63,121 bases of DNA, from NCBI GenBank assembly GCA_019695265.1, contig JAIBAJ010000008.1, positions 1 to 63,121 of the forward strand, written 5' to 3'. A program made the position numbers and the translations under genes. Under the pieces are notes generated by a model. It was not told the origin of the DNA. It was given only the letters and a program-made list of their open reading frames with translations, and made no database searches. Positions 43,760 to 62,960 of the stretch are shown here, piece after piece. This stretch comes from Bacteroidia bacterium. Lineage in GTDB: Bacteria; Bacteroidota; Bacteroidia; JAIBAJ01. Positions within the stretch are counted from its first letter, which is position 1. Every line of letters starts with the position of its first letter.

Positions 43760-45919
43760 TTACCTAACTAAGGTAACATGACCATAAAATAACCTCGTTT
43801 CAAGGTCTACACCGTATAAGTATAGCTTATAGGCATATACATCGCTCGGACAAGTTCCCAGGTCCTGACCACGGTAAGTACCGTCCCAGCCTTCATTAAA
43901 ATTGTTCGATCTGAAAACCAGTTCCCCCCAACGATTGTATATCTCAATCTTAAATTCTTTGGCTCCCATTCCCACCGGTTTAAATGTTTCATTCATTTTG
44001 TCGCCATTCGGGGTGAAACTATTGGGTATATAAAAAACGTACTCAGGCTGAATATAGAGGTAAACGTAATTTACATCCGGACATCCCAAATCATTGGTTA
44101 CAATTTGTTTTACCACGATGGCGCCGGTATCGCCTTCAAACCTATATTTTAAATCACAGGTATCCACCATGACGCCGGTACTAAACTCCAGCCTGCAATC
44201 AACCGAACCGCTTGAAATATCCTGGAAATTAAATTCGGGATCAAATTGGGATGCTGTTAAGGTGTCAACTTCCAGCATGGCAGTTGGTGTGGGTAAAACA
44301 GTTATTAAATTAATGGCTGTATTCATTACCGTATCTTTACAACCAAAATCCGACATAACGGTTAAACTTACGGTGTACTGTCCCGGATCGCTGAAAATGT
44401 TAAATGGGTCAGTTTGGGTAGAAACTCTGCCATCTCCAAAATCCCATAAATAATCCAAACCAAATTCATATTGGCTGGTATTGGTGAAGTTTACCTTGAA
44501 TGGTGCACAACCGGTTTGGGGAATTAAGTTAAAGGATGAAATCGGGTTTTCGTATAACATCACATCCAGGCTGTCGGTGCTAAAACAACCATCTGATTCA
44601 ATGGTTAAAAATACCCGAAACGTATCTGCCGCATTAAAACTAATATCGGTTGGATCCTTTAATGTACTTGTACTAGGATTACCCGAAGCGCCAAAATTCC
44701 AGGAAAAGGTTGAATAACTCTGAAATACTCCTCCTGCTTGAAAACTAAAATCATTGCCATTGAAGCATTGACTTTCCACAGAAGGTATATCTGCCTCCAA
44801 ATATTCTTTTACAACATAATCTAAAATGGCAGTATCTGCACAAGGCCACCCCGGATTTGCAATTAAGGAGATTTGATAGGTTCCGGTATCCTGGTATGAA
44901 TAGGAGGGGGTTTCCAAATTGGAAGTATCGTCTGTTAAATTGGTAACACCAAAATCCCAGTGGTAAAAGGTGGAGTTGACACTGCTATTGGAAAAGCTGA
45001 CATTTCTACCCAAACAAAAACTGGTTTGATCCGGAATAGCTGCAATAACATTGGTTGTACAATTAACTACATTGAATTGAAAATCCCTCTTATTGGTACT
45101 GATTAATTGCCCATTTCTATATTCTTTAACACAAACGGCAACCACATATTGTCCAACCTGCGAGGGTGTTACAGTTAATACACCTGTATTAGGGTCAATT
45201 GCCAAAGCAGGACTGGATGGCATAGGGAAGCTTGCAGAATAACCAAAGCCATAATTGACAAAAGGATAAGCCGGTGCCGGTGCGGTGGTTGGATAAGGAT
45301 CGGTTGAGTTGGCACCTTGGTAGGCATCACATAATTCATACACCAACAAATCACCATCCGGGTCGGTTGCGGAATGGTTAAAAATTAGCTGTTCGCCGGC
45401 GCACAATGCGATGGGCGGAAATTCATTATACCGTGGACTGCTATTGCAAGATGCCAAGCTCTGAGGTGGTACAAAACACATGTAGGTACTACCTTGATCG
45501 CCGGGTGCTGTTAGGTTCAGAATGGAATTGTTTCTACAACAACGTTGATAACTGATAAAATAACCGGCAGCATTGGGTGGTAAAGTAACAATGTATTTGT
45601 AGGTAGCTTCCCTAACACAAATATTGGGCGGAGCCTGCAAGCAAGGGTTGTTGATTATGACAGGAACTGAAATACTATCAACCTCCGTTAAAGATGGATT
45701 CAAAAAGGGGGTGCTTAAGTTGGATCCGTCATAAATTGTTAAATAAGCCGGATTGTCAAAAGGGGCTTGTCCGTTAATACAATCTCGGTACACCTTGAGT
45801 GTAATTTCATATTCATTATTCCCTAAACAGGTGTAATAAATTTCGCCTCCAACAATATGCGTAGCCAGCAGGTAAAAAGGCATGCTTAGCAAAACAAAAA
45901 GGAAAGCGAATTTTTTCAA
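43760..45919 (-). CDS. Gliding-motility-type CHU_C adhesin with PKD domains
   Basis: 719 residues. Signal peptide 1-19, then HIVGGEIYYTCLGNNEYEIT, the classic N-terminus of this Bacteroidota adhesin group. An Ig-like region is followed by PKD-type domains (FYHWDFGVTN; DYLWDFGDGRVS) and, in the last 100 residues, the gliding motility-associated C-terminal domain (FYIPNSFTPNGDKMNETFKP, EIYNRWGELVF, NEGWDGTYRG, YAYKLYLYG). That domain is a type B T9SS signal, so the protein should be surface-displayed or released. It is not part of an operon; an intergenic gap with repeat R8 lies upstream. Confidence 0.9.
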   Translation of the reverse strand: MKKFAFLFVLLSMPFYLLATHIVGGEIYYTCLGNNEYEITLKVYRDCINGQAPFDNPAYLTIYDGSNLSTPFLNPSLTEVDSISVPVIINNPCLQAPPNICVREATYKYIVTLPPNAAGYFISYQRCCRNNSILNLTAPGDQGSTYMCFVPPQSLASCNSSPRYNEFPPIALCAGEQLIFNHSATDPDGDLLVYELCDAYQGANSTDPYPTTAPAPAYPFVNYGFGYSASFPMPSSPALAIDPNTGVLTVTPSQVGQYVVAVCVKEYRNGQLISTNKRDFQFNVVNCTTNVIAAIPDQTSFCLGRNVSFSNSSVNSTFYHWDFGVTNLTDDTSNLETPSYSYQDTGTYQISLIANPGWPCADTAILDYVVKEYLEADIPSVESQCFNGNDFSFQAGGVFQSYSTFSWNFGASGNPSTSTLKDPTDISFNAADTFRVFLTIESDGCFSTDSLDVMLYENPISSFNLIPQTGCAPFKVNFTNTSQYEFGLDYLWDFGDGRVSTQTDPFNIFSDPGQYTVSLTVMSDFGCKDTVMNTAINLITVLPTPTAMLEVDTLTASQFDPEFNFQDISSGSVDCRLEFSTGVMVDTCDLKYRFEGDTGAIVVKQIVTNDLGCPDVNYVYLYIQPEYVFYIPNSFTPNGDKMNETFKPVGMGAKEFKIEIYNRWGELVFRSNNFNEGWDGTYRGQDLGTCPSDVYAYKLYLYGVDLETRLFYGHVTLVR

Positions 45920-46249
45920 AGGAGTTTACCTATTGCTAACAAAAATCGTAATTAATTGATTATCTAATTGGTATTTTTTATCAAATTGAATTCTTTTGTA
46001 GGAAATTTTAACTTAACCATTCAGTTTTCATGCTTTTTTGACCTGGAAATTAATGCCAGGCAGTTTATTATTCATTTTAAATAGCTGACTAGTAGAGTCT
46101 TAACCTGATTGTTAGCCTTTTGTTAAAAAATTGGGTATACTATTGAAATGGAATTTTGAAAACAGGAGAACGGCTTACTTATTATGGATTTATTGTAGGC
46201 GGGATTAGCAATTTATAGGTAATAGTACCACTATTTTGGGTTTGCACCT

Positions 46250-46392
46250 CGGGCAACGATAGAGGCAAGTAGCCCACAGGACCCCGACGGCGTTAGCCTA
46301 GGGGGACGAGGACTACAGCCGATAGCGTGACCCGAACGCCCATGCAGGCAAACTGAATTTTGCAGGAAGAAAATGGGCGGAGGGGGCCCGCC
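46250..46392 (-). repeat. Dispersed structured repeat R8 (subfamily I)
   Basis: It lies in the 559-bp gap between the CHU_C gene start and the end of the next minus-strand gene. On the minus strand: box A GGCGGGCCCCCTCCGCCC, box B GGGCGTTCGGGTCACGC, box C GCCTCTATCGTTGCCCG. On the plus strand the loop ACGGCGTTAGCCTA (46287-46300) is flanked by CCCC (46282-46285) and GGGG (46302-46305), with one G-G mismatch beside the loop. Bases 45920-46249 show no gene. Confidence 0.85.
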
Positions 46393-46478
46393 AAATTGTA
46401 TTCAAAAACTCATCCATCGAGTTGGGGAAGTTTTTGGACAAATAAAGTAAGACGGCCTAAACTTTATGGCGTATGATT

Positions 46479-46958
46479 CTATTTCTTTACCAGACTTTGA
46501 AGGAGATCATCATAGTCATGCTGTAAATCGGGATGAAGCTGCTGTAGCGCTTTTTCAATTTTTTTCAGAATAGTTTCATTCAATTTTTCCCAAACCATAG
46601 ATTTAGGAAAATAGCGGGAAAGGAACTTGAAATTCGTTAAGAAATGTGCAAAAAGTTCGATTTCTGTAGTTTTAATTCCTGAATATTTGATATGTTTTTG
46701 AGTAATACGCAAGGCTTTTCTAACACCTTTTTTAGCATAATAAAAACTAGATTTATTAATTTCGGAGAATGCTAAGTCGATTTCTTCTTTTACTTTAATG
46801 ATATAACCGGATTCGTGGTCTTGTTCAAAAAGAAGGTAAATGAGAAGTTCTTTATTTTCTTTTTTGTATTTAGAAATTTTCAGGCAAAGTTCAACCAGTT
46901 CCTGCGGATCGCGCTGACTAAGTTCTTTTTTTATTTCTCCAAGTTTAACAGCTTCCAT
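46479..46958 (-). CDS. Conserved hypothetical helical protein
   Basis: 159 residues, mostly helical and Lys/Glu/Leu-rich, without signal peptide or named domain. It ends with a run of amphipathic helices (FLTNFKFLSRYFPKSM). It overlaps the START-like gene upstream by one base and thus belongs to the same transcript as it and the DUF3820 gene. Similar proteins, to my knowledge uncharacterised, occur in Bacteroidota. No function is proposed. Confidence 0.72.
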   Translation of the reverse strand: MEAVKLGEIKKELSQRDPQELVELCLKISKYKKENKELLIYLLFEQDHESGYIIKVKEEIDLAFSEINKSSFYYAKKGVRKALRITQKHIKYSGIKTTEIELFAHFLTNFKFLSRYFPKSMVWEKLNETILKKIEKALQQLHPDLQHDYDDLLQSLVKK

Positions 46959-47338
46959 TACAGATCAGCGAAGTATTCTTCCAGGTTACCGAAAATTACA
47001 TCATCCCATCCTTCGACCATATCAGAGTAAGCTTCGTCGGGAATATTGGTATGTTGAAGTTCAATGGACGTACCTTTTTTATGTTCGTGGAAACGCAGTA
47101 TGACTTTTGATTCGGTTTCATCGCCAAAATCCCAGGTTTGAACAAGTTCTTTGTTGGGGACAAAATGAATATTTTTGCCTGTAATATTGCCATCTAACCA
47201 TGAAAATTCTTGTCCGGGTTCAGATGGCATAACAGCCTTTTGGTTGGTCCACAATTCGATGGTTAAGGGGTTAGTGAAAGCGATATAAACTTCCTCCGGG
47301 CTGGCATTTAATAGATAGTATTTTTTAAAATTTTTCAT
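46958..47338 (-). CDS. START-like / SRPBCC domain protein
   Basis: 126 residues forming one SRPBCC-type domain: FKKYYLLNASPEEVYIAFTN, FSWLDGNITGKNI, ETESKVILRFHEHKKGTSIE and a C-terminal helix with EGWDDVIFGNLEEYF. It probably binds a hydrophobic ligand or partner. Overlaps DUF3820 by 4 bases upstream and the helical protein by 1 base downstream, so all three should be translationally coupled. Confidence 0.85.
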   Translation of the reverse strand: MKNFKKYYLLNASPEEVYIAFTNPLTIELWTNQKAVMPSEPGQEFSWLDGNITGKNIHFVPNKELVQTWDFGDETESKVILRFHEHKKGTSIELQHTNIPDEAYSDMVEGWDDVIFGNLEEYFADL

Positions 47339-47559
47339 TTTTTCAAAGGGGTGAGCAATTGCTCAAGTCCATTAAGTTTTATTTCATATATGGTGTGAAG
47401 CATCATCCCTAACTTACCTGGAGGGAAGCCTTTTCTATTAAACCATTCGAGATATGAAACCGGTAAATCGCATATAAGTCGACCTTGGTATTTTCCAAAA
47501 GGCATAGGGGTTTTGACCAATTGTACTAGTAATTCGGAATTGGGTAAGATGGGTTCCAT
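47335..47559 (-). CDS. DUF3820 family protein
   Basis: 74 residues with the DUF3820 core: MPFGKYQGRLICDLPVSYLE then WFNRKGFPPGKLGMML. The family is small, cytoplasmic and of unknown role, sometimes described as quorum-sensing-regulated. It begins 8 bases after the stop of the giant C-type lectin gene and overlaps the START-like gene by 4 bases. Confidence 0.85.
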   Translation of the reverse strand: MEPILPNSELLVQLVKTPMPFGKYQGRLICDLPVSYLEWFNRKGFPPGKLGMMLHTIYEIKLNGLEQLLTPLKK

Positions 47560-47567
47560 GATAAAAA

Positions 47568-50500
47568 TTACCTAAAAAGCATCACGGTTCCTCGGAAAAG
47601 ATGAGGGTAGTCTCGCATGTCTCTGATACTGATTTGATAGGTATACATATCTTGCTTTAAATCAGATCCGGTATCCCTAAGGGTTCCGTCCCATCCTTCT
47701 TCAATATTTCTGGTACGGAATACAATTCCGCCCCATCGGTTCATAATTACCATTTCGTAGGAAGCAATACCAATGCCTTTGGGTTTAAAGGTTTCATTAA
47801 CTCTATCCTGGTTAACTGTAAAAGCATTTGGGATATACAGGGTAAATGCAGGACTTACATAAACCTGTCGCATAATTTGGTCTGAACAACCAAACGAATT
47901 AGTTACAGTAAGGTAGACATTAAAAAAGCCGGTATCGGAATAGGCATGGAAAGGATTTTGTATGGTATCACCACCACCGTCTCCAAAATTCCATTGCCAG
48001 GTTAAGGAATCACCTTGTGAAGAATCTTGGAAAAGCACGATGGGGTCCATTAGGATATCGGCCGGATTGGGTTGGGCTGTAAAAAATGCAGAAGGTTTAG
48101 GGGAAGTTTGCACCGTATTCGGAAGAACAAGAGAGGCAGAGCAATTTTTGTCGGAGGTGGCAGTTAAGCTTACTGTGAAATTTTCGGCCAAATTATAGGT
48201 TGTACTTACTACATCTCCTGAAGGTAATGCCCCATTTCCCAAGTTCCATTGCAGGGAAGCTATGCTACCAGTTAGGATGGTGCTGGTACTGGTAAAATTG
48301 ACATCTAAGGGAATACAGCCAGTTGTAATTGGTTCAGCAGTAAAAGAAACTTCAGGTAAGGGATTAACAATGGCTGTTAAGGTGGTATCGTGTTGGCAGC
48401 CTTGGTCGGTAGTAGCTTCCAGGTTAACCGTGTAAGAGCCGGGAGCCTGGTAGGTGTAAACAGGACTATTATCGCTGGATAGGGAACCGTCGCCAAAATC
48501 CCAATTGTAATTAATAATTGCACCGGTGGCAACAGTGGATAGGTTAGTGAAAGCAGAAGGGAAATTTAAGCAGGGTTCAGAGACACTAAAGTTAACAAAA
48601 GGTACAGGGTTTACTTGTAAAACCATTTGGTCGGTGCTGGTACAGTTGTTAATGTCTGTTACTGTCAAAACATAATTGGTAGTTGAAGTTGGATTTGCCT
48701 GAGGGGAAGGAGAGTTGGGATCATCTAAACCGGTTGCAGGAGACCAGCTAAACGTGTTACCATTTCCAGAGCCTTGAATACCAATGGTTTCACCGGAACA
48801 AATTTCCAGGTCAATACCAGCATTCGCGGCAGGTGGGGGGGTAACAGTAATGATTACCATATCGGTATTTTGGCAGCCATTGTTATCGGTAACATTGACG
48901 GTATAGGTTACACTTCCGGCAGGGCTTGCCACAGGGTTGGAGATGTTGGCATTGGAAAGAGCTATTGCTGGGCTCCATTGGTAAAGGATTCCGCCAGAAG
49001 CATTAAGAGTTATAGTATTTCCAAAACAAATAGAAGCATCATTTCCGGCATTTGCTGTTGGCAGAGGATTAATAGTAATATCTACATCATCCGTATTTAC
49101 ACAACCATTGGCATCCGTCACAGTAACGGTATAGGTTGTATTGGTAGTTGGATTTGCATTGGGGTTTGAAATGGAGGGATCGTCCAAATTTGTTGTAGGG
49201 TTCCAAGAATAACTTATTCCGCCACCTGCTCCAAGGTTTACAGAACTGCCGAGGCAAATAGCTTCATCCGGTCCTGCATCAGCCGGTGGTAATGGATTTA
49301 CAGTTATCAGGATATCATCACTTCCTAGGCAATTATTAGCATCGGTAACAGTAACGGTATAAGTAGTGGTAGTTCCGGGAGTGGCAACCGGATTAGCTAT
49401 GGAAGGATTATCCAAAGTAGCAGCAGGTAACCAAGCATAGGTTAATCCACCACTTGCAGAAAGGTTGGCAGATTGACCTAAACAAATTGCCTGATCCGAA
49501 CCTGCGTTAGGGGTGGGCAAAGGATTGATGGTTAGTGTCATTTGGTCGGTATTTACACAGCCATTGGCATCTGTAACCGAAACGGTATAGGTGGTAGTAC
49601 CTGGAGGTGTTGCAACCGGAGCAGCACTATTTGGGTCACTCAATCCGGTAACAGGAGACCAAACATAACTGGAGCCACCTGAAGCACCCATGACAAAGAT
49701 GGAGTTTAAGCAAGCAGTTGCGTCTGCACCTGCATTGGCATTAGGTAAAGGGTTTACAGTTATGATTACATCATCGGTATTAGAGCAGTTGTTTCCATCG
49801 GTAACGGTAACAGTATAGGTTGTAGTAGCATTTGGGCTGGCGTTTGGGGTTGAAATTAAAGCATTGTCTAAGCCTGTTGTCGGAGACCAAGAAAAACTTA
49901 GTCCTCCTGTAGCAGATAGGCCAGTAGAACCACCCAAACAAATGGATTGATCCAATCCGGCGTTGGCAGAAGGTAGGGTATTAACGGTAATGGTTATATC
50001 ATCGGTTGCGCTACAGTTATTTCCATCAGTTACAATAACGGTATATAGAGTAGTTACGAGTGGGCTTGCAACCGGATTGGAGATATTATTAGCCGATAAT
50101 GTAGCGCCGGGACTCCAGGAATAGCTAACTCCTCCGGAGGCTTGTAAATTAGCATTAGCGCCATTGCAAATGGATTGGTCAGAACCGGCATTAGCATTAG
50201 GCAAAGGGTTGACAGTTAAAACAAGTTGGTCTGTATTGACACAACCATTGGCATCGGTGACTGTTAAGGTATAGGTTGTAGTTGAAGAAGGGCTGGCGGT
50301 AGGCGATGCTATACCCGGGTTGGAAAGGCCGGTTCCCGGCGACCATACATAGGTACCACCTCCACTACCATTCAAAAAGGCCAACGCGTTTTGACAAATA
50401 GCAGCATCGGTTCCTGCATCGGCTAAAGGAAGAGGATTAACAGTAATAGTAATATCGTCGGTTGCGGTACAACCAAAAGCATCTGTTGCGGTTAAGGTGT

Positions 50501-51410
50501 AAGTGGTGGTATTAGCCGGGCTGGCTGCAGGATTAGGGATGGAGGTTGAGCTTAGACCGGTTGCCGGAGACCAGGAATAAGAAACACCCCCGCTAGCGTT
50601 AATATTGTAGGAAGCTCCTGCGCAAATTGAATTATCGGAACCTGCATTGGGGAAGGGTTGATTAATAGCAACTGTTAGAGATTGAATGCTGGTACAACCA
50701 TACCGATCAGTCATAGTAACTGTATAGGTCGTGGTAGTAGTAGGGGAGGCAATGACTGTTGATCCTGAGGTGGTATTTAGACCGGTTGCCGGAGACCAGG
50801 TATAGTTGTAAGGCGGGGATCCTAGAATAGTTGCGGCTGTAAGGGTAACGGAGTTTCCAATACATACACTAGCGCTGGCAGGGTTAGGAGTAATTGTTGT
50901 TTGAGGGCATAAATTAACTTCAATTACACTTTTGCTATTATTGGAATTGCAGTCTAAATCGTTCCAGGAGCCATCTGCATAAATTTGAACACAATCTTCA
51001 TTTCCAGATTGGTTTGGTTCACCGGAAGCCCAATTGGTATAACCGACATTTGCCTGATCAAACCAGGTAAAGGAACCTTCATTCGTGATATCATTAAAAC
51101 CTATCCAAATTACCCCACCGTAACCGAGGGTATTGAGGTTGTTGAGAATACAGGTATTTTCGGCTGCACTTTCAATGGAAGTAAGGTTAGTGCCTAAATT
51201 TTGGGCGAATGCTTGAGCCGCACTTCCAGACATTTGTTGAGGAAGAATAAAATAAAGGCTGCAAGCGTCCTGGCAGGTAGTTAATTCAACACAACCGGCA
51301 TTTGTAAAGGTTTGTCGGATTAATTGTAGGTTGCATTGAGCCTTTGCGTAAAACCCAAGGCTGCTATAAAGAAATGCACAGAGAAGAACCTTAATAAGTT
51401 TCATTTTCAT
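47568..51410 (-). CDS. Giant adhesin: C-type lectin domain, ten Ig-like repeats, PKD domains, CHU_C sorting domain
   Basis: 1280 residues from the ATG at 51410 (51425 and 51404 are alternatives; 51410 or 51404 fit the signal peptide, ending YAKAQ). A C-type lectin domain covers about 25-170: WIGFND, then EPN at 131-133 and WND at 149-151, the residues that coordinate Ca2+ and select mannose-type sugars in known lectins. Ten tandem units of about 76 residues follow (48610-50890), each with NAG.D..IC, SYSWSP.T, TTTYTVTVTD..GC and DDI.ITVN. Three PKD domains (NWDFGDGSLS; QWNFGDGG) and the gliding-type C-terminal domain (LYIPNAFTVNQDRVNETFKP, IMNRWGGIVF) end it. Probably T9SS-exported and sugar-binding; ligand inferred from motif only. 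Confidence 0.9.
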   Translation of the reverse strand: MKMKLIKVLLCAFLYSSLGFYAKAQCNLQLIRQTFTNAGCVELTTCQDACSLYFILPQQMSGSAAQAFAQNLGTNLTSIESAAENTCILNNLNTLGYGGVIWIGFNDITNEGSFTWFDQANVGYTNWASGEPNQSGNEDCVQIYADGSWNDLDCNSNNSKSVIEVNLCPQTTITPNPASASVCIGNSVTLTAATILGSPPYNYTWSPATGLNTTSGSTVIASPTTTTTYTVTMTDRYGCTSIQSLTVAINQPFPNAGSDNSICAGASYNINASGGVSYSWSPATGLSSTSIPNPAASPANTTTYTLTATDAFGCTATDDITITVNPLPLADAGTDAAICQNALAFLNGSGGGTYVWSPGTGLSNPGIASPTASPSSTTTYTLTVTDANGCVNTDQLVLTVNPLPNANAGSDQSICNGANANLQASGGVSYSWSPGATLSANNISNPVASPLVTTLYTVIVTDGNNCSATDDITITVNTLPSANAGLDQSICLGGSTGLSATGGLSFSWSPTTGLDNALISTPNASPNATTTYTVTVTDGNNCSNTDDVIITVNPLPNANAGADATACLNSIFVMGASGGSSYVWSPVTGLSDPNSAAPVATPPGTTTYTVSVTDANGCVNTDQMTLTINPLPTPNAGSDQAICLGQSANLSASGGLTYAWLPAATLDNPSIANPVATPGTTTTYTVTVTDANNCLGSDDILITVNPLPPADAGPDEAICLGSSVNLGAGGGISYSWNPTTNLDDPSISNPNANPTTNTTYTVTVTDANGCVNTDDVDITINPLPTANAGNDASICFGNTITLNASGGILYQWSPAIALSNANISNPVASPAGSVTYTVNVTDNNGCQNTDMVIITVTPPPAANAGIDLEICSGETIGIQGSGNGNTFSWSPATGLDDPNSPSPQANPTSTTNYVLTVTDINNCTSTDQMVLQVNPVPFVNFSVSEPCLNFPSAFTNLSTVATGAIINYNWDFGDGSLSSDNSPVYTYQAPGSYTVNLEATTDQGCQHDTTLTAIVNPLPEVSFTAEPITTGCIPLDVNFTSTSTILTGSIASLQWNLGNGALPSGDVVSTTYNLAENFTVSLTATSDKNCSASLVLPNTVQTSPKPSAFFTAQPNPADILMDPIVLFQDSSQGDSLTWQWNFGDGGGDTIQNPFHAYSDTGFFNVYLTVTNSFGCSDQIMRQVYVSPAFTLYIPNAFTVNQDRVNETFKPKGIGIASYEMVIMNRWGGIVFRTRNIEEGWDGTLRDTGSDLKQDMYTYQISIRDMRDYPHLFRGTVMLFR
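48610..50890 (-). repeat. Ten tandem Ig-like repeats inside the lectin adhesin
   Basis: Coding repeats of about 228 bp each. They are divergent in DNA sequence but regular in length, with repeated protein cores as given for the gene. Regular tandem coding DNA of this kind can change in copy number by recombination. Confidence 0.8.
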
Positions 51411-51449
51411 AACAAAGGAAAGCAAAATTCGATTAGGTTCTATGAAATC

Positions 51450-56214: not shown

Positions 56215-58326
56215 CTATGATAACTGAACTCCCATGACCATTATATCATCAATTTGATCGTATTCTCTTTTCCAGTTTAAAAAATTATTGTAGAAATGTT
56301 CCTTTTGTTTTCTTCCGCTTAACTTATGGATCTCAACTAAAAATTTTTCAAATTCCTTTCTCTGGATTTTTTTATTGAATTCCCCTCCAAATTGATCTGT
56401 ATAACCATCGGATTGCAGATAAACCCAGACCTTGTTTTCAATAGGAATGGCTGTCTTTTCAAAAGGGATGTTTTGTAGCCTTTTGCTGCCAATGGAACGT
56501 TTGTTTCCGTTAAATCGCTCTACTTCACCTGATTCCTTAACCAGGTAGAGAGGTCGACCGGCACCGGCAAATTCCAAAATTTTGGTGGATGAATCATAGC
56601 AACACAAAGCCACATCCATTCCATGTTCATGAATTTCAAGGTTGGAATTGCCTTTAAAAACTGCTGACAAATTAAGGTCTAACTCTTCAAGCATAGCGTC
56701 GATGGTTGGGGCAGTTTCATTTTTAAGCTGTCTATCAAAAATATCAACACCTAAAATGGACATAAATGCTCCCGGTACACCATGACCTGTGCAATCTGAA
56801 ATAGCAAAGTAGATTTTGTTCGAATGGATTCCTACCCAATAAAAATCACCGCTTACAATATCTTTTGGAAGATTTAACAAAAAGGAATCATGAACAACAG
56901 ATGACAATATTTCCCATTCCGGCATCATACTTCGTTGAAGAGTTGCGGCGTAAAGAATAGAATCGGTAATATCTTTGTTTTTCTGTTCTAAATCTAAATT
57001 TTGTTTGTTTAGAAGCTTGGTTCGCTGAGCAACTTCAATTTCTAAACGCACATTCACCTGGTCGGTAATTCTATTTATTTCTTGTAATTTTTCAAGGGCT
57101 TCTTCCTGGGCCATCTCTTTTTCTTTTTGTACCAATGAAAATTGTTCTGCCATGGACAAGGAAAGGAATATTACTTCAATAGCATTTCCAATTTTTAGGC
57201 TATTATAGGTTAAGAAGTTAAGGGGAATTAAGTTTGAATTTGCTAAAACGAAAATGATAGTACCTACAAATAAACTGGCAAAAGCGGCATAGAAATACAT
57301 ATTCCCTTTTCTGTTTTCTCTTCTGCTGGCAACTAGGGAATAGACAATAGCAATCATCGAGGATAATCCGGATGTGTTTACCAGTATTAATCCTAGTAAA
57401 AACCAAAAGTCGTTTCCAAAGGAAAACAGTGAACCTAACACTGTAATTACCATTGAACCATCTACCAGCCTGGATGGCCAACGGTTAGTGAGGGTACATA
57501 AATTTAAGAACTTTTTGGTGTATAATAATACAAACAGGATGGTGGCAGAAGTTAAAATAATGATACTGCGATCTGCAATCAAAGAGCTGAATTTGAAAAA
57601 CAGAGTAGCATTATAGCCTTCCAAAGAAATTTGAAGAATAACAATTGAAATTACATAGAACACATACCATAGATAGGAGCGATTTTGTAAAGTATAGAAA
57701 AGGAAAAGGTTTGAAAAAATGGCAAATACCATTATTCCAAAGAATATTCCTAAAAAGATTTGTTCTTTTAGCTCATGGCGATTATAGTCCTCGGAAGAAT
57801 ATAAATTGGCCCCTACTAATGCAATATCACCATTGGGTTTAATTCGAATGTAAATTGTATTTTCAGAATGAGGTAAAAGCCTAATTTGAAAGACATTGGG
57901 TTTGGAGAAATGGAGACTGTCGGGGTAAGGTAAAGCATCTCCTAATGTTAAGTGTTCCCAATTATTAGATTGATTTCTTGTAAAAACAGTTATTTCATTG
58001 GTTGTGGGTCTTGAAATTTCCAGGAAATAATTTGCCTGATTTTCGAATGGGTAATTTATGGAAACTCTCATCCAAAAGCTTGAATGGGAAAATCCTAAAT
58101 TTTGCATGGGGCATTTTATCGGTTGGAATTTTCCATTTTCAAATTGTTGAATGGCATCGGTAAAAGTTGTAAGTCCACTTGAATCTTCCCAATACATGGT
58201 ACTCGTAAGGAGTGAATTTTCAGTCGGGTTAGAACCTGATTTCGGAGAAGGTGCGAATGGGTAAGCCCAAGTTGGACTAAGCAAATAAAAACATAGAAGT
58301 AAAATGAATATTTTCTTCGGATTCAC
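56215..58326 (-). CDS. 7TM-DISM receptor with SpoIIE-type PP2C phosphatase
   Basis: 703 residues. A signal peptide precedes an extracytoplasmic 7TMR-DISMED2 sensor (about 35-180; SHSSFWMRVSINYPF). Then come seven membrane helices (about 185-395) of the 7TMR-DISM type, a short coiled coil (LEKLQEINRITDQVNVRLEI) and a C-terminal SpoIIE/PP2C domain (about 465-703): GDFYWVG, DCTGHGVPGAFMS, GAGRPLYLV and QSDGYTDQFGG carry the metal ligands. Such proteins dephosphorylate a phosphoprotein partner, usually an anti-sigma antagonist, in response to an external signal. No STAS or anti-sigma gene is beside it, so the target is unknown. Confidence 0.92.
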   Translation of the reverse strand: MNPKKIFILLLCFYLLSPTWAYPFAPSPKSGSNPTENSLLTSTMYWEDSSGLTTFTDAIQQFENGKFQPIKCPMQNLGFSHSSFWMRVSINYPFENQANYFLEISRPTTNEITVFTRNQSNNWEHLTLGDALPYPDSLHFSKPNVFQIRLLPHSENTIYIRIKPNGDIALVGANLYSSEDYNRHELKEQIFLGIFFGIMVFAIFSNLFLFYTLQNRSYLWYVFYVISIVILQISLEGYNATLFFKFSSLIADRSIIILTSATILFVLLYTKKFLNLCTLTNRWPSRLVDGSMVITVLGSLFSFGNDFWFLLGLILVNTSGLSSMIAIVYSLVASRRENRKGNMYFYAAFASLFVGTIIFVLANSNLIPLNFLTYNSLKIGNAIEVIFLSLSMAEQFSLVQKEKEMAQEEALEKLQEINRITDQVNVRLEIEVAQRTKLLNKQNLDLEQKNKDITDSILYAATLQRSMMPEWEILSSVVHDSFLLNLPKDIVSGDFYWVGIHSNKIYFAISDCTGHGVPGAFMSILGVDIFDRQLKNETAPTIDAMLEELDLNLSAVFKGNSNLEIHEHGMDVALCCYDSSTKILEFAGAGRPLYLVKESGEVERFNGNKRSIGSKRLQNIPFEKTAIPIENKVWVYLQSDGYTDQFGGEFNKKIQRKEFEKFLVEIHKLSGRKQKEHFYNNFLNWKREYDQIDDIMVMGVQLS

Positions 58327-58457
58327 AGGTTTGAAGTGAGGTTGACCTTAACTAATTTTTTTTAACTTGGTTTCATTTGTAAAGGAATTTATTGGGTTGT
58401 GATATTTTGGACAGATTATTTATAATAAAGTTTGTGGTTATTTTGTATTTTCGTTCC

Positions 58458-59348
58458 ATGTTTATTCGTTTAAGATTCCAGGTTTTACTCTCGGTCCTGT
58501 TGCTATCGCTTAGCATGAGTTCTTGTAAGAAATATGAAGAAGAGCTAATCCCCAACAATGTTGCTCCTCCCGATAACACTATTTCGGAGGTGACCATGCA
58601 GACCTATGTTAACAAAGTTTATATCAGTGTTTTAGGTAGGAAGCCCACAGATTTGGAATTGGACCAAGGTTTAGAAATAATTAATCAAGGGAATTTAAGT
58701 GTTTCCAGTCGATTGGCTTTCCTGGATCAGGTGCAGGCAAAGTCTGAGTATTATCCTCATCTTTATTCCTTAGCAAGGCAAGAGTTATTGAATGATTTAG
58801 ATACCGCTGAGATTAGTGGTAATAAGGCATTGTTTGAATTTCTTTTAAGTCAGCCGGAATATGCCGCTTATGCCGCCCAATTGACCAAGGAGATTGTTAG
58901 GTTGGATTCCATGATGAAAATTCCATCTAATTTGGAAATGGATCAACCATTCGGGGTAGCTAAAATGCATAAATGGTGTATCAATAATTATTTTTATGAC
59001 CAATTAAATATGGGTACTTATAATTTTGTTACTTCCAGTTTTGAGCATTTTTTGTTCAGAGATCCTTCTGATTCAGAATTGTTTGGTGGGTCGAAAATGG
59101 TTGATGGTTTCAGCGGAACCTTGTTTTTTCAAGTTGGAAGTAGTAAAATGGATTACCTGAATATTTTCTTTTTTCAATCATCAGATTATTATCAAGGACA
59201 AGTGCGCGATTTGTATCAACGGTATTTATTTCGGGATCCAAGCTCTGAGGAAACGGTGCAATTGGCTGTCCCTTACAAGAGTACAGGTGATTTTAAAGAA
59301 TTGCAAAAGCAGATTTTGGCATTGGATGAATATGTTGGTTTAAAGTAA
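58458..59348 (+). CDS. Lipoprotein A of the exported operon
   Basis: 296 residues. A lipobox places Cys23 (SMSSCKKYEE) as the lipidated residue. The body is helical. It carries three copies of a Y/F..x..R.P...E motif: VNKVYISVLGRKPTDLE, SSFEHFLFRDPSDSE and VRDLYQRYLFRDPSSEE. The first resembles the N-terminus of DUF1549 proteins of Planctomycetes. I do not assign a family. The start was taken at 58458 because only there does a signal sequence begin. The next gene starts 10 bases after. Confidence 0.75.
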   Translation: MFIRLRFQVLLSVLLLSLSMSSCKKYEEELIPNNVAPPDNTISEVTMQTYVNKVYISVLGRKPTDLELDQGLEIINQGNLSVSSRLAFLDQVQAKSEYYPHLYSLARQELLNDLDTAEISGNKALFEFLLSQPEYAAYAAQLTKEIVRLDSMMKIPSNLEMDQPFGVAKMHKWCINNYFYDQLNMGTYNFVTSSFEHFLFRDPSDSELFGGSKMVDGFSGTLFFQVGSSKMDYLNIFFFQSSDYYQGQVRDLYQRYLFRDPSSEETVQLAVPYKSTGDFKELQKQILALDEYVGLK

Positions 59349-59358
59349 CTGGTAGAAA

Positions 59359-59865
59359 ATGAAAACACTGACACAATTAAATCTCCACCGGATATTATTT
59401 GTACTTTTTATTTCCTTTTTGAATCAATCTTGTAGAAAGGAAACGGCCTATATTTATGGGGTAACCGATGTAACAATCAGCCGGACAGGGGCAAATAAAG
59501 AAAATGTAAAATCAACCACGGAGTTTATTTCCATTGCCTATTCCGATATTTTCGGTACTACCATTCCTCATTCGGAATTAGTTAAGCTCCAAGCCGCTTA
59601 TAGTGCTTTTGGAGATCAAAAATTAATAGAACAATTGGTTATCCGCAATTTTCTTAATCAATCCGGAAACACCATTCCTTCGGCAACAGATATGAATTCG
59701 GATTTAGATAAGTTTATTGATCAGAGCTATATTAAGTTTTTTGCCAGACATCCAAATGAGTATGAGGCTTATTACTTAAAGAACTTGTTGATTTCGGATC
59801 CTGGCATTACTCCTGAATTGGTATATTTTTCTATGATGACTTCGAATGAATACCGCTACTACTAG
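59359..59865 (+). CDS. Lipoprotein B of the exported operon
   Basis: 168 residues with a lipobox (LNQSCRKE). It carries two related motifs: ISIAYSDIFGTTIPHSE and IDQSYIKFFARHPNEYE, like those of lipoprotein A, and ends MMTSNEYRYY. It may be a shorter relative of lipoprotein A. The Tat-exported gene begins 6 bases after its stop. The role is unknown; the tight spacing indicates work with its neighbours. Confidence 0.72.
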   Translation: MKTLTQLNLHRILFVLFISFLNQSCRKETAYIYGVTDVTISRTGANKENVKSTTEFISIAYSDIFGTTIPHSELVKLQAAYSAFGDQKLIEQLVIRNFLNQSGNTIPSATDMNSDLDKFIDQSYIKFFARHPNEYEAYYLKNLLISDPGITPELVYFSMMTSNEYRYY

Positions 59866-59871
59866 AATAAA

Positions 59872-61173
59872 ATGAAAAGAAGAAGTTTTATTAAAAAGGC
59901 CGGACTTGCAACTGCAGGTGTATTTTCAGTCCCTTACATTTTACCTTCAGGACGCTTATTTGCCGCAACCGGAAGCAGGATAGCCGATCATGTTGTACTT
60001 TGTTTGTTTGCAGGTGGTGTAAGAAATTTGGAAAGTATCCAAAAGATCGAGGGAAATTTAATGCCGAATACGTTATTTGGTTCGGAGTCAATCAATCCTC
60101 AAATTGCCCCGGGGATGTCTGCTTTGCCTAGTCCGTTTTCCAATGTTTTGCAATCCCAGGCTACCTTGTATAAAGAGTTTAGATATGCCGCTGGAGCAAC
60201 AGGCCATTTTAATGCACATTCTGCAGTACTTACAGGTAAGTATAATTTAGTGGATGTTAACTTAAAACAAAGGCCTTCCAATCCAACCGTTTTTGAATAT
60301 TATCGCAAGCATAATAGCCCGTCCATGTCAGCCTTAAATGCTTGGTGGATTTCAAACTCCTTAGGGCCTTATCCCGCTTTGAATTTCAGTAATTATCCCG
60401 GATATGGTGCTGAATTTGGCGCAAATTATATTCAACCCCGTTCCGTAATTTCTGCTTCCGGGTATGAGGTGCTCGGTAATCCAAAGAACTTTAACACCAG
60501 CGAAATCGATAAAATCAATAAGATTCGAAGTTTCTGTGATAATAATTTTTCAAAGAATTTTACTTCAGGCGACGCCGGGGTTACGAATGCCATCGAAGAC
60601 TCCATGCTGTTGGATCAATTTATTCAAGATTCTTACACCGAAGCATTGGCCGGACAATACGATAATCCATGGAATTCTCCGTCAGGAATGAGCGGAGATA
60701 TGTTTAATGTGTTTTTTGCTGAAAAGGTAATTGAACGATTTAAGCCTGAATTGTTGGTAGTTAACATGCAAGATGTTGATATCGGGCATACCAATTTTAC
60801 CGCTTATTGCGATAATATGAGAAAAGCTGATTATGCCTTGGCTCATTTGTGGCAAACCATTCAAACTACACCGGGAATGGCAAATAATACCGTTTTAATC
60901 GTTGTTCCGGAACATGGTAGAAATCAAGAACCCAATACCTTGTTGGATTCATTTGGAAGATATGCTCTAGACCATAATAATGATGCCATGAGCAGGGAAA
61001 TATTTTGTTTGGTCGCTGGACCTGCCGGAAAAGTAGTTCAAAATCAGGTTATTTCTACTGAAGTTGGACAAACAATTGATGTGGTGCCTACCATTGCCAA
61101 GGTTCTAGGTTTTTATTCAGATATTCCCGGTGGAATGTTAGATGGTCAAATTTTGGAACAATCCTTCAATTAG
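59872..61173 (+). CDS. Tat-exported alkaline-phosphatase-fold protein (DUF1501-like)
   Basis: 433 residues. A twin-arginine signal (KRRSFIKKAGL, hydrophobic core to about residue 30) implies folded export. The body fits the DUF1501/alkaline phosphatase superfamily: FAGGVRN near the start, GHFNAHSAVLTGKYN, NMQDVDIGHTNF, KADYALAHLWQTIQ, and TVLIVVPEHGRNQEP with Glu-His-Gly-Arg. Asp and His residues could bind metals, but a catalytic Ser/Thr is not clear, so activity is uncertain. Between lipoprotein B and the CX4CH lipoprotein (7 bases). Confidence 0.82.
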   Translation: MKRRSFIKKAGLATAGVFSVPYILPSGRLFAATGSRIADHVVLCLFAGGVRNLESIQKIEGNLMPNTLFGSESINPQIAPGMSALPSPFSNVLQSQATLYKEFRYAAGATGHFNAHSAVLTGKYNLVDVNLKQRPSNPTVFEYYRKHNSPSMSALNAWWISNSLGPYPALNFSNYPGYGAEFGANYIQPRSVISASGYEVLGNPKNFNTSEIDKINKIRSFCDNNFSKNFTSGDAGVTNAIEDSMLLDQFIQDSYTEALAGQYDNPWNSPSGMSGDMFNVFFAEKVIERFKPELLVVNMQDVDIGHTNFTAYCDNMRKADYALAHLWQTIQTTPGMANNTVLIVVPEHGRNQEPNTLLDSFGRYALDHNNDAMSREIFCLVAGPAGKVVQNQVISTEVGQTIDVVPTIAKVLGFYSDIPGGMLDGQILEQSFN

Positions 61174-61180
61174 CAATACC

Positions 61181-62137
61181 ATGAAAAACAAAGTATTATT
61201 TATTTCGATTGGTTTTGCCTTGTTAGCTGTTATGCAAATGGGCTGTTGGAAGGAGTTGAATCCTAAGCCTGAAAACCCATACGATCAAGTTGATTATCAC
61301 ACTCCACCTACACCTGTGGATACCTTGGACCCAAATTCTTTCGTGTCAATTCACCGTGATATTTTGGTTCCTAAATGCGCACAACCCGGTTGCCATGACG
61401 GTGTGTTTGAACCGGATTTCCGTTCTTTAGAAAGCTCCTATGCTACCTTGGTTTACGCTCATATTACCAAAAATAACGCGGATAGCAGTTTTGCTTTTCG
61501 AGTTATTCCTTTTGATAAAAATAAATCAGTTCTGTATGAGCGAATTACCAATTGTTGCTTTGTAAACCAAAATGATCGAATGCCTCAAGACAATATTGGG
61601 GTGCCGATGGAAAGTGATAAAATTGATCGGATTGCTGCTTGGATTATGGGAGGAGCTAAGGATATGTTTGGAAATATACCGCAATTCCCAAATTCCGAAC
61701 CCAATATTCAATATTACATAGCAACGGATCCTCAGTTTAATACTATTTCTAATACCAACAACCGAATAGACAGTATATATTACAATCCATTTATTGTACC
61801 TTCCAATTATACTATGAATTTGATATTTGTAGTAAGTGATGATAGCACTTCTGTGGATCAATTGACCTACAATAAAGTTAAAATGAGTTTTGAAGCAGAT
61901 AATTTTTCAAGTTCTGCTCCCGGCTATAAAGAATTTCAAGCATTTGTTATCACCAATCCAACCAATGGAGACAAATACCTGATGGCTACAATCAATACCA
62001 ACCAGTTTGCTTCGGGTAATATTGTTTATTTTCGATTTTATACCAACGATGGCGATCATGTCGGAAATACAGAATTCCCCTACAATTCTTTGGATTTACC
62101 TTACAAAACATTTTTTTCATTTTATATTCAACCTTAA
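61181..62137 (+). CDS. Lipoprotein with planctomycete-type cytochrome-like domain (CX4CH)
   Basis: 318 residues. Lipobox Cys22 (MQMGC). The stretch ILVPKCAQPGCHDG holds a CX4CH motif (Cys66, Cys71, His72), resembling the haem site of PSCyt1-type domains but with four instead of two residues between cysteines. DRMPQDN, a possible Met ligand, and IAAWIMGGAKD follow as in those domains. About 100 C-terminal residues look beta-rich and unknown. Whether it binds haem covalently is open. The start was set by the lipoprotein signal; upstream codons overlap the previous gene. Confidence 0.75.
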   Translation: MKNKVLFISIGFALLAVMQMGCWKELNPKPENPYDQVDYHTPPTPVDTLDPNSFVSIHRDILVPKCAQPGCHDGVFEPDFRSLESSYATLVYAHITKNNADSSFAFRVIPFDKNKSVLYERITNCCFVNQNDRMPQDNIGVPMESDKIDRIAAWIMGGAKDMFGNIPQFPNSEPNIQYYIATDPQFNTISNTNNRIDSIYYNPFIVPSNYTMNLIFVVSDDSTSVDQLTYNKVKMSFEADNFSSSAPGYKEFQAFVITNPTNGDKYLMATINTNQFASGNIVYFRFYTNDGDHVGNTEFPYNSLDLPYKTFFSFYIQP

Positions 62138-62148
62138 TAGTTCCAGGC

Positions 62149-62610
62149 ATGACTCAAATAAAACGTAATTACAAGTTAGTATACCTTGGTATAATTGCTA
62201 TGGCTATTTTCTTTTCATGTTCAAAGAAGGAAGATATAAGCGAAATACCTAGTATTAGTTTTGAAAGTGTTTCACCATTCGGCAACATCCGGCAATATGA
62301 AGATTCAATTCTCTTTAAAATAAGCTACAGGGATGGTGATGGAGATTTGGGAGAGAATATTGATTCTGTCAATAATTTATTTCTAACAGATAGTCGGAAT
62401 AATGTTACGTATAAATACCGATTGCAGGAATTAGCTCCAATGGGAGCCAAAATTCCAATTCAAGGAAGCGTGAACATCCTTTTAACTAGTATTTCTTTAG
62501 TTGATCCGGCCTCAAGTTCTGAAACAACAACCTTTTCAATTTATTTGGTTGACAGAGCCGGTAATAAAAGTAACACAGTTACCTCATCGGTGCTAACCAT
62601 TGTACCCTAA
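62149..62610 (+). CDS. Lipoprotein with Ig/cadherin-like fold
   Basis: 153 residues. The lipobox FFSCSKKED is followed by a single beta-sandwich-like domain with the YRDGDGDLGEN motif common in Bacteroidota lipoproteins, and VDRAGNKSNTV near the end. No binding partner is predicted. 11 bases follow the CX4CH gene; its stop shares one base with the start of the YjbR gene (TAATG). Confidence 0.75.
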   Translation: MTQIKRNYKLVYLGIIAMAIFFSCSKKEDISEIPSISFESVSPFGNIRQYEDSILFKISYRDGDGDLGENIDSVNNLFLTDSRNNVTYKYRLQELAPMGAKIPIQGSVNILLTSISLVDPASSSETTTFSIYLVDRAGNKSNTVTSSVLTIVP

Positions 62611-62960
62611 TGGATATTGAAACCTTAAGGAATTTCTGTATTACATTGCCTTGTGTTACAGAAGATATTAAGTGGGATAATGATCTTTGTTTTTGTATCG
62701 GAGGAAAGATGTTTTGCATCGCCTCATTAGATCCTCCCTTTAAATTGGCAATTAAGGTAGAGAAGGAAAAGTTTGCAGAATTAATTCAAATTTCAGGGAT
62801 AAGTCCTGCACCTTACCTTGCACGCTACAATTGGGTTTCTATTCAAATGGATGCACATCTGGGGCAGCAAGAACAATTGGAATTGGTGAAAAAGTCATAC
62901 CAATTGGTTTTGGAAAAGCTAGGCAAACAAGAGCGTATGAAAGTTGAAAATGCCTCGTAA
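62610..62960 (+). CDS. MmcQ/YjbR family protein
   Basis: 116 residues with the MmcQ/YjbR pattern: FCITLPCVTEDIKWDNDLCF, FCIASLDPPFKLAIKVEKEK, then YLARYNWVSIQMDAH and a C-terminal helix. It is a paralogue of the gene at 14467. It is coupled by a 1-base overlap to the exported operon but is cytoplasmic. Function is unknown. Confidence 0.85.
   Translation: MDIETLRNFCITLPCVTEDIKWDNDLCFCIGGKMFCIASLDPPFKLAIKVEKEKFAELIQISGISPAPYLARYNWVSIQMDAHLGQQEQLELVKKSYQLVLEKLGKQERMKVENAS

Follow-up and report, generated by a model that had tools for sequence, protein, structure and literature searches.

Modules built from PSCyt and PSD domains and from DUF1501 are abundant in Planctomycetes and Verrucomicrobia and have no known function (PMC5615132, PMC4452313). 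One such pair consists of a 730–1100 aa protein with the domains PSCyt1-PSCyt2-PSD1 (PF07635-PF07583-PF07587) and a DUF1501 protein (PF07394), both exported and encoded by adjacent genes. In Proteobacteria a DUF1800-DUF1501 pair adjoins bacterial chitin synthases (PMC5122149); its DUF1501 protein is of the Tat type and shares an operon with an exported partner of unassigned role. True PSCyt1-PSCyt2-PSD1 proteins with a DUF1501 neighbour occur in 11 of 148 Bacteroidota genomes. The genome studied here is not among them: it has no PSCyt2 and no DUF1501 match above the Pfam curated cut-off, and its sole PSCyt1 match lies on another contig.

We analysed a 63,121-nucleotide stretch of this genome (hereafter the window), in which a preliminary description had recognised a Bacteroidota version of the PSCyt1/DUF1549/DUF1501 set with its parts on separate proteins. 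This reading is upheld as one of distant homology, given profile scores above those of shuffled controls and the active-site pattern of gene C; that genes A-E are a Bacteroidota relative of the PSCyt1-PSCyt2-PSD1 and DUF1501 module is, judged from sequence, highly probable. Like the module, A-E are adjacent genes whose products are all predicted to be exported, and they combine a cytochrome domain, helical partner domains and a DUF1501-type protein with a common active-site pattern; the cytochrome gene stands alongside the DUF1501-type gene in conserved order. They differ in being mostly separate small lipoproteins instead of one large protein, in having CX4CH for CXXCH and in an extra Ig-like fifth gene. 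All products of A-E stay below the cut-offs of the Pfam models for DUF1501, PSCyt1, PSCyt2 and PSD1, and we therefore regard the set as a sister module and not a member. The DUF1800-DUF1501 pair resembles the set in its Tat-type DUF1501 protein and exported operon partner, but no cytochrome is described for it, and Pfam scans of the A and B families gave no DUF1800 match. In the literature on DUF1501, DUF4214, PSCyt2 and CX4CH we found no description of the Bacteroidota set.

Layout of the locus

The five genes and their immediate neighbours in the window are as follows.

56215-58326, - strand: 7TMR-DISM / SpoIIE signalling protein, divergent from A
58458-59348, + strand: gene A, ATG start; lipoprotein, all-helical, DUF4214 / phycobilisome-linker-like, resembling PSCyt2/PSD1
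59359-59865, + strand: gene B, small lipoprotein, relative of A and of the PSD1 C-terminus
59872-61173, + strand: gene C, predicted Tat-exported alkaline-phosphatase-superfamily protein, DUF1501-like
61181-62137, + strand: gene D, lipoprotein; predicted PSCyt1-type monohaem cytochrome c domain at the N-terminus, beta domain at the C-terminus
62149-62610, + strand: gene E, small lipoprotein, probably a single Ig-like beta domain (DGDGDLGEN ... DRAGNxSN)
62610-62960: YjbR gene, downstream, with a 1-base overlap with the E stop

The reading frames of A-E (58458-62610) are real and their coordinates agree with the preliminary description, with intergenic gaps of 10, 6, 7 and 11 bases for A/B, B/C, C/D and D/E. 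For gene A there is an alternative open TTG upstream at 58392. The signals given in the preliminary description were confirmed: the signal peptides of A, B, D and E are of the lipoprotein type, the lipid Cys being invariant within each family; the N-terminus of C (MKRRSFIKKAG) is a Tat-type signal, and the genome encodes TatC; and D carries the CX4CH motif (C66-X4-C71-H72) in a genome that encodes one cytochrome c assembly protein. For E the lipoprotein assignment stands, and the Ig-like domain is probable; a Pfam scan of the family (alignment of 32 members) found nothing consistent, its Ig-like matches all lying below threshold. Two flanking genes were considered as further members and rejected: YjbR is not conserved with the A-E set, and neither is the neighbourhood of the 7TMR-DISM/SpoIIE gene with it.

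Gene order and the paralogous set

The order A-B-C-D-E, which the preliminary description had put forward for scrutiny across Bacteroidota, is conserved. The window has all five genes in this order, as do 40 other fetched loci representing 22 further families; the incomplete loci in the fetched set mostly reflect contig ends or broken genes. A scan of named genomes gave 421 relatives; scored on the best 80 loci, the order was complete in 71; among the 63 loci with enough flanking sequence at either end, 60 were complete. Every title among these 80 that names a group names Bacteroidota. Phaeocystidibacter luteus, a cultured marine bacterium, carries the set (locus L194). The recurrence of five families in one order is far beyond chance, and none of the products falls into a well-characterised unrelated family.

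Of 395 genomes of the class, 152 have relatives of C at E ≤ 1e-3, a figure to which other, weakly matching proteins with the alkaline-phosphatase fold also contribute. The strong relatives form two subfamilies, with about 46–71% and 36–45% identity to the C of the window. About ten loci of the first subfamily have an M20-family peptidase gene immediately or almost immediately 5′ of A on the same strand (below); it is absent from this position in the window, and as a candidate member it was rejected, not being kept with the set.

L033:10807-12174: M20-family peptidase gene, first-subfamily locus
L036:4440-5819: M20-family peptidase gene, first-subfamily locus

From the lack of a T9SS domain in all five products, probable work in the periplasm or at the outer membrane had been deduced. 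The observation holds, in that neither Pfam nor NCBIfam finds a T9SS sorting domain in A-E; the deduction was too quick, as a paralogous set is tied one-to-one to T9SS cargo. In other genomes the second subfamily has A-B-C-D-E followed by a gene for a protein of about 1160 aa (CUB, PKD, CHU_C) that does carry a T9SS sorting domain, often with overlapping stop and start codons. This gene lies directly 3′ of E in 19 second-subfamily loci, for example:

L058:10686-14168: cargo gene, second-subfamily locus
L067:2973-6527: cargo gene, second-subfamily locus

According to presence lists compiled by hand for the 395 genomes, all 50 genomes that have a second-subfamily C also have the cargo gene, and one further genome, whose assembly is 80% complete, has it as well (Fisher test, p about 6e-59 or smaller; 5.9e-63 as computed). 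The present genome also has a paralogous set, complete and distributed over three places:

L003:5780-9042, contig C11: B′C′D′E′
L215:4432-5349, contig C65: A′, directly after dxs
L216:3639-7139, contig C90: T9SS cargo gene

Because all six genes have been retained here after the operon broke up, we infer a functional link between the second-subfamily set and its cargo. Near the second copy (L003:11145-12722) a 525-aa protein combines a weak cytochrome domain, Cu2-monooxygenase domains and a T9SS tail. The window's own set has no adjoining cargo gene, and no partner was found for it. Elsewhere in the window, on the - strand at about 43802-51425, several large reading frames of up to about 1290 aa match T9SS type B (CHU_C/PKD) cargo.

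The lipoprotein export signal is a Lys and two acidic residues after the Cys (PMC5080379). We counted it in 11–15 members of each lipoprotein family, a simple tally with no background rate that decides neither surface nor periplasm.

Relation of the products to the module parts

When the window proteins were scanned singly with curated Pfam and NCBIfam models, almost nothing was returned; informative results came from family-wide scans only. We compared family profiles with reference alignments of the true module (Bacteroidota PSCyt1-PSCyt2-PSD1 proteins and their DUF1501 neighbours) using hhalign in local mode after removal of signal peptides, and set the scores against 40 column-shuffled controls; E-values refer to single comparisons. 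In such profile searches, which the preliminary description had proposed, D, A, C and B each exceed the shuffles against the matching module part. By their absolute values the matches of A, B and C are weak (E 3e-4 to 1e-3, single comparisons), and sub-threshold Pfam matches independently indicate module families for A (PSD1, PSCyt2) and C (DUF1501). Among cross-pair controls, C and E against PSCyt2-PSD1 stayed below their shuffled maxima (18.9 against 22.8 and 15.0 against 17.8), and A against DUF1501 was slightly above (20.5 against 18.8).

By these comparisons D is a clear relative of PSCyt1. Compared with the PSCyt1 part of the true module proteins it gave an hhalign probability of 97.7 (E 1.6e-12) and, with signal peptides removed, a score of 71.3 (E 2.7e-12; column-shuffled maximum 20.5). 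A Pfam scan of the D family found nothing consistent and no PSCyt1 (PF07635) match. In place of CXXCH it has CX4CH, which published surveys count as a haem motif (PMC10734462). C66, C71 and H72 of this motif are invariant in 35/35 members, as are M134 and P135; the conserved features are CX4CH, the later MP and a WI..GA(K) end. The D profile weakly matches the solved cytochrome FoxE (E 1.8e-4), which a PSCyt1-bearing profile finds as well. These features suggest that D binds haem.

The AF2 model of C (pLDDT 86) adopts the alkaline phosphatase superfamily fold and is of the sulfatase/phosphodiesterase type; Foldseek gave it 454 matches in the PDB at E ≤ 0.001. C shares this fold and the order of motif regions with Phosphodiest (PF01663) and Sulfatase (PF00884) but lacks their Thr/Ser/Cys nucleophile and first metal Asp, and has E-[HCI]-G-R in place of DHG. 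In a weak alignment with Bacteroidota phosphodiesterases (E 2e-3) the Thr nucleophile, 9 residues before TG, aligns with H112 of C, itself 9 residues before [TQ]G; the DUF1501 His stands at an equal distance. The first metal Asp appears to align with the invariant G48 of C (DG[FV]R versus GGVR after the first strand). In this register, taken from sequence alignment, the canonical nucleophile and two-metal ligand set are absent from C (Asp to Gly48, Thr to His112), and the residues of one metal site are kept.

H112, D303, H306, E347, G349, R350, D367 and H368 are invariant in 39/39 C proteins, with a Gly at +10 from H112 in 39/39 as well. In 37/39 the positions 303-306 read D-x-C-H; the window protein has Gly for the Cys (codon 305, about 60784-60786). 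The corresponding invariant residues of DUF1501 (17/17) are H157, D341, H343, E384, G386, R387, D403 and H404. The pattern read off these 17 proteins, H(9)[TS]G, D-x-H, E-F-G-R and D-H, is present in C with minor differences (DxxH for DxH; H/C/I for F). Because this departure from the superfamily pattern is common to both, C probably groups with DUF1501 and not with ordinary sulfatases, and we consider it the best single argument for the grouping. In profile comparison with the Tat region included, C matches DUF1501 at E 1.9e-4 over 374 columns; with the region removed, the match covers the C-terminal 99 columns only (38.5; shuffled maximum 28.4). Among solved structures, sequence searches brought up no DUF1501, PSCyt2 or C relative, and gave marginal sulfatase and cytochrome matches only. 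A full-length C-type match was found in 0/9 PSCyt2-positive genomes of the class, which is not significant.

Given the missing first metal Asp and nucleophile, C may not be an enzyme. The main alternative to our reading builds on this: C would be catalytically dead and the unit a structural or binding assembly, such as a surface adhesin or a haem-free, cargo-anchoring lipoprotein complex that presents T9SS-secreted proteins. The invariance of Gly48 and His112 at the altered positions, the strict tie of the paralogous set to a secreted CUB/PKD protein and the likeness of A to phycobilisome linkers, which are scaffolds, all suit it. It is harder to square with D303, H306, E347, R350, D367 and H368, which stay invariant across two subfamilies about 40% identical and in DUF1501, unusual for a dead fold; likewise, the cytochrome-type Cys, Cys, His and Met of D, invariant in 35/35, speak against a scaffold free of haem. 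We consider this alternative fairly unlikely.

A and B share a helical repeat with DUF4214 (PF13946) and the phycobilisome linker (PF00427), but are small lipoproteins and mostly below or near the cut-off. The AF2 model of A (pLDDT 92) had no significant Foldseek match in the PDB, the best being phycobilisome linkers. DUF4214 is the strongest Pfam match of both families, in 22/23 A members (best E 3.1e-7) and 17/34 B members, and profile scores are moderate, as expected if their likeness to PSCyt2/PSD1 were convergence of short helical DUF4214-like repeats, with D and C the only true relatives. Yet A matches PSCyt2-PSD1 with a score of 38.8 over 120 PSCyt2 columns in order, far above the shuffled (24.2) and reversed (20.4) maxima, and separate A members independently match PSD1 (8 of 23, best E 2.9e-4) and PSCyt2 (2 of 23, 4.6e-3), all below threshold; we hold convergence to be unlikely. 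B scored 31.4 against the PSD1 C-terminus (shuffled maximum 22.3), and A against B 36.8 (21.6). On these alignments A, C and B are probable relatives of PSCyt2-PSD1, DUF1501 and PSD1, respectively.

That C is instead an ordinary extracytoplasmic sulfatase or phosphodiesterase whose glycan or nucleotide substrate the lipoproteins bind, its DUF1501 likeness being of superfamily level only, is very improbable: more members match Phosphodiest (12/39) and Sulfatase (7/39) than DUF1501 (2/39, sub-threshold, best E 0.0032) and the best Foldseek matches are sulfatases, but the nucleophile and first Asp are missing, the replacement pattern is that of DUF1501, and the neighbours of C also match DUF1501 partner proteins, which coincidence would not lead one to expect.

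Possible working of the unit

The best overall explanation, which we favour with moderate confidence, is that the five genes form one functional unit, a taken-apart, Bacteroidota-specific relative of the planctomycete and verrucomicrobial module. D would be the cytochrome (PSCyt1) part, A and B the helical (PSCyt2/PSD1, DUF4214-like) part and C the DUF1501 part, with E an additional Ig-like lipoprotein. It is somewhat probable that the five products form a complex. C would fold in the cytoplasm, probably with a metal, cross the membrane by Tat and dock, at the outer membrane, on A and B, the helical lipoproteins; D would hold one covalent haem close to C, and E would bind the target and so tether the assembly. 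Such an assembly could carry out a metal- and redox-dependent modification, or the anchoring, of an envelope or secreted product. The redox or phosphate chemistry suggested in the preliminary description would fit such a scheme. That it acts as a redox-coupled enzyme is a tentative and rather doubtful proposal. In a bolder and distinctly unlikely version DUF1501 and C make up a new class of active site within the alkaline phosphatase superfamily, with His at the nucleophile position and one remaining metal site, and work with a monohaem cytochrome of their own; the resulting redox-coupled unit would, in Bacteroidota, mature or anchor T9SS cargo, directly so for the second subfamily.

The interest of the Bacteroidota set lies in its split form and its link to cargo, which make the module's function testable. 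The strict pairing of the second subfamily with its cargo points for the first time to a definite candidate substrate or partner. With the parts on small genes in the cultured Phaeocystidibacter luteus, each could be removed or purified separately, and the common His/ExGR pattern provides a direct mutational test that is applicable to the planctomycete proteins too.
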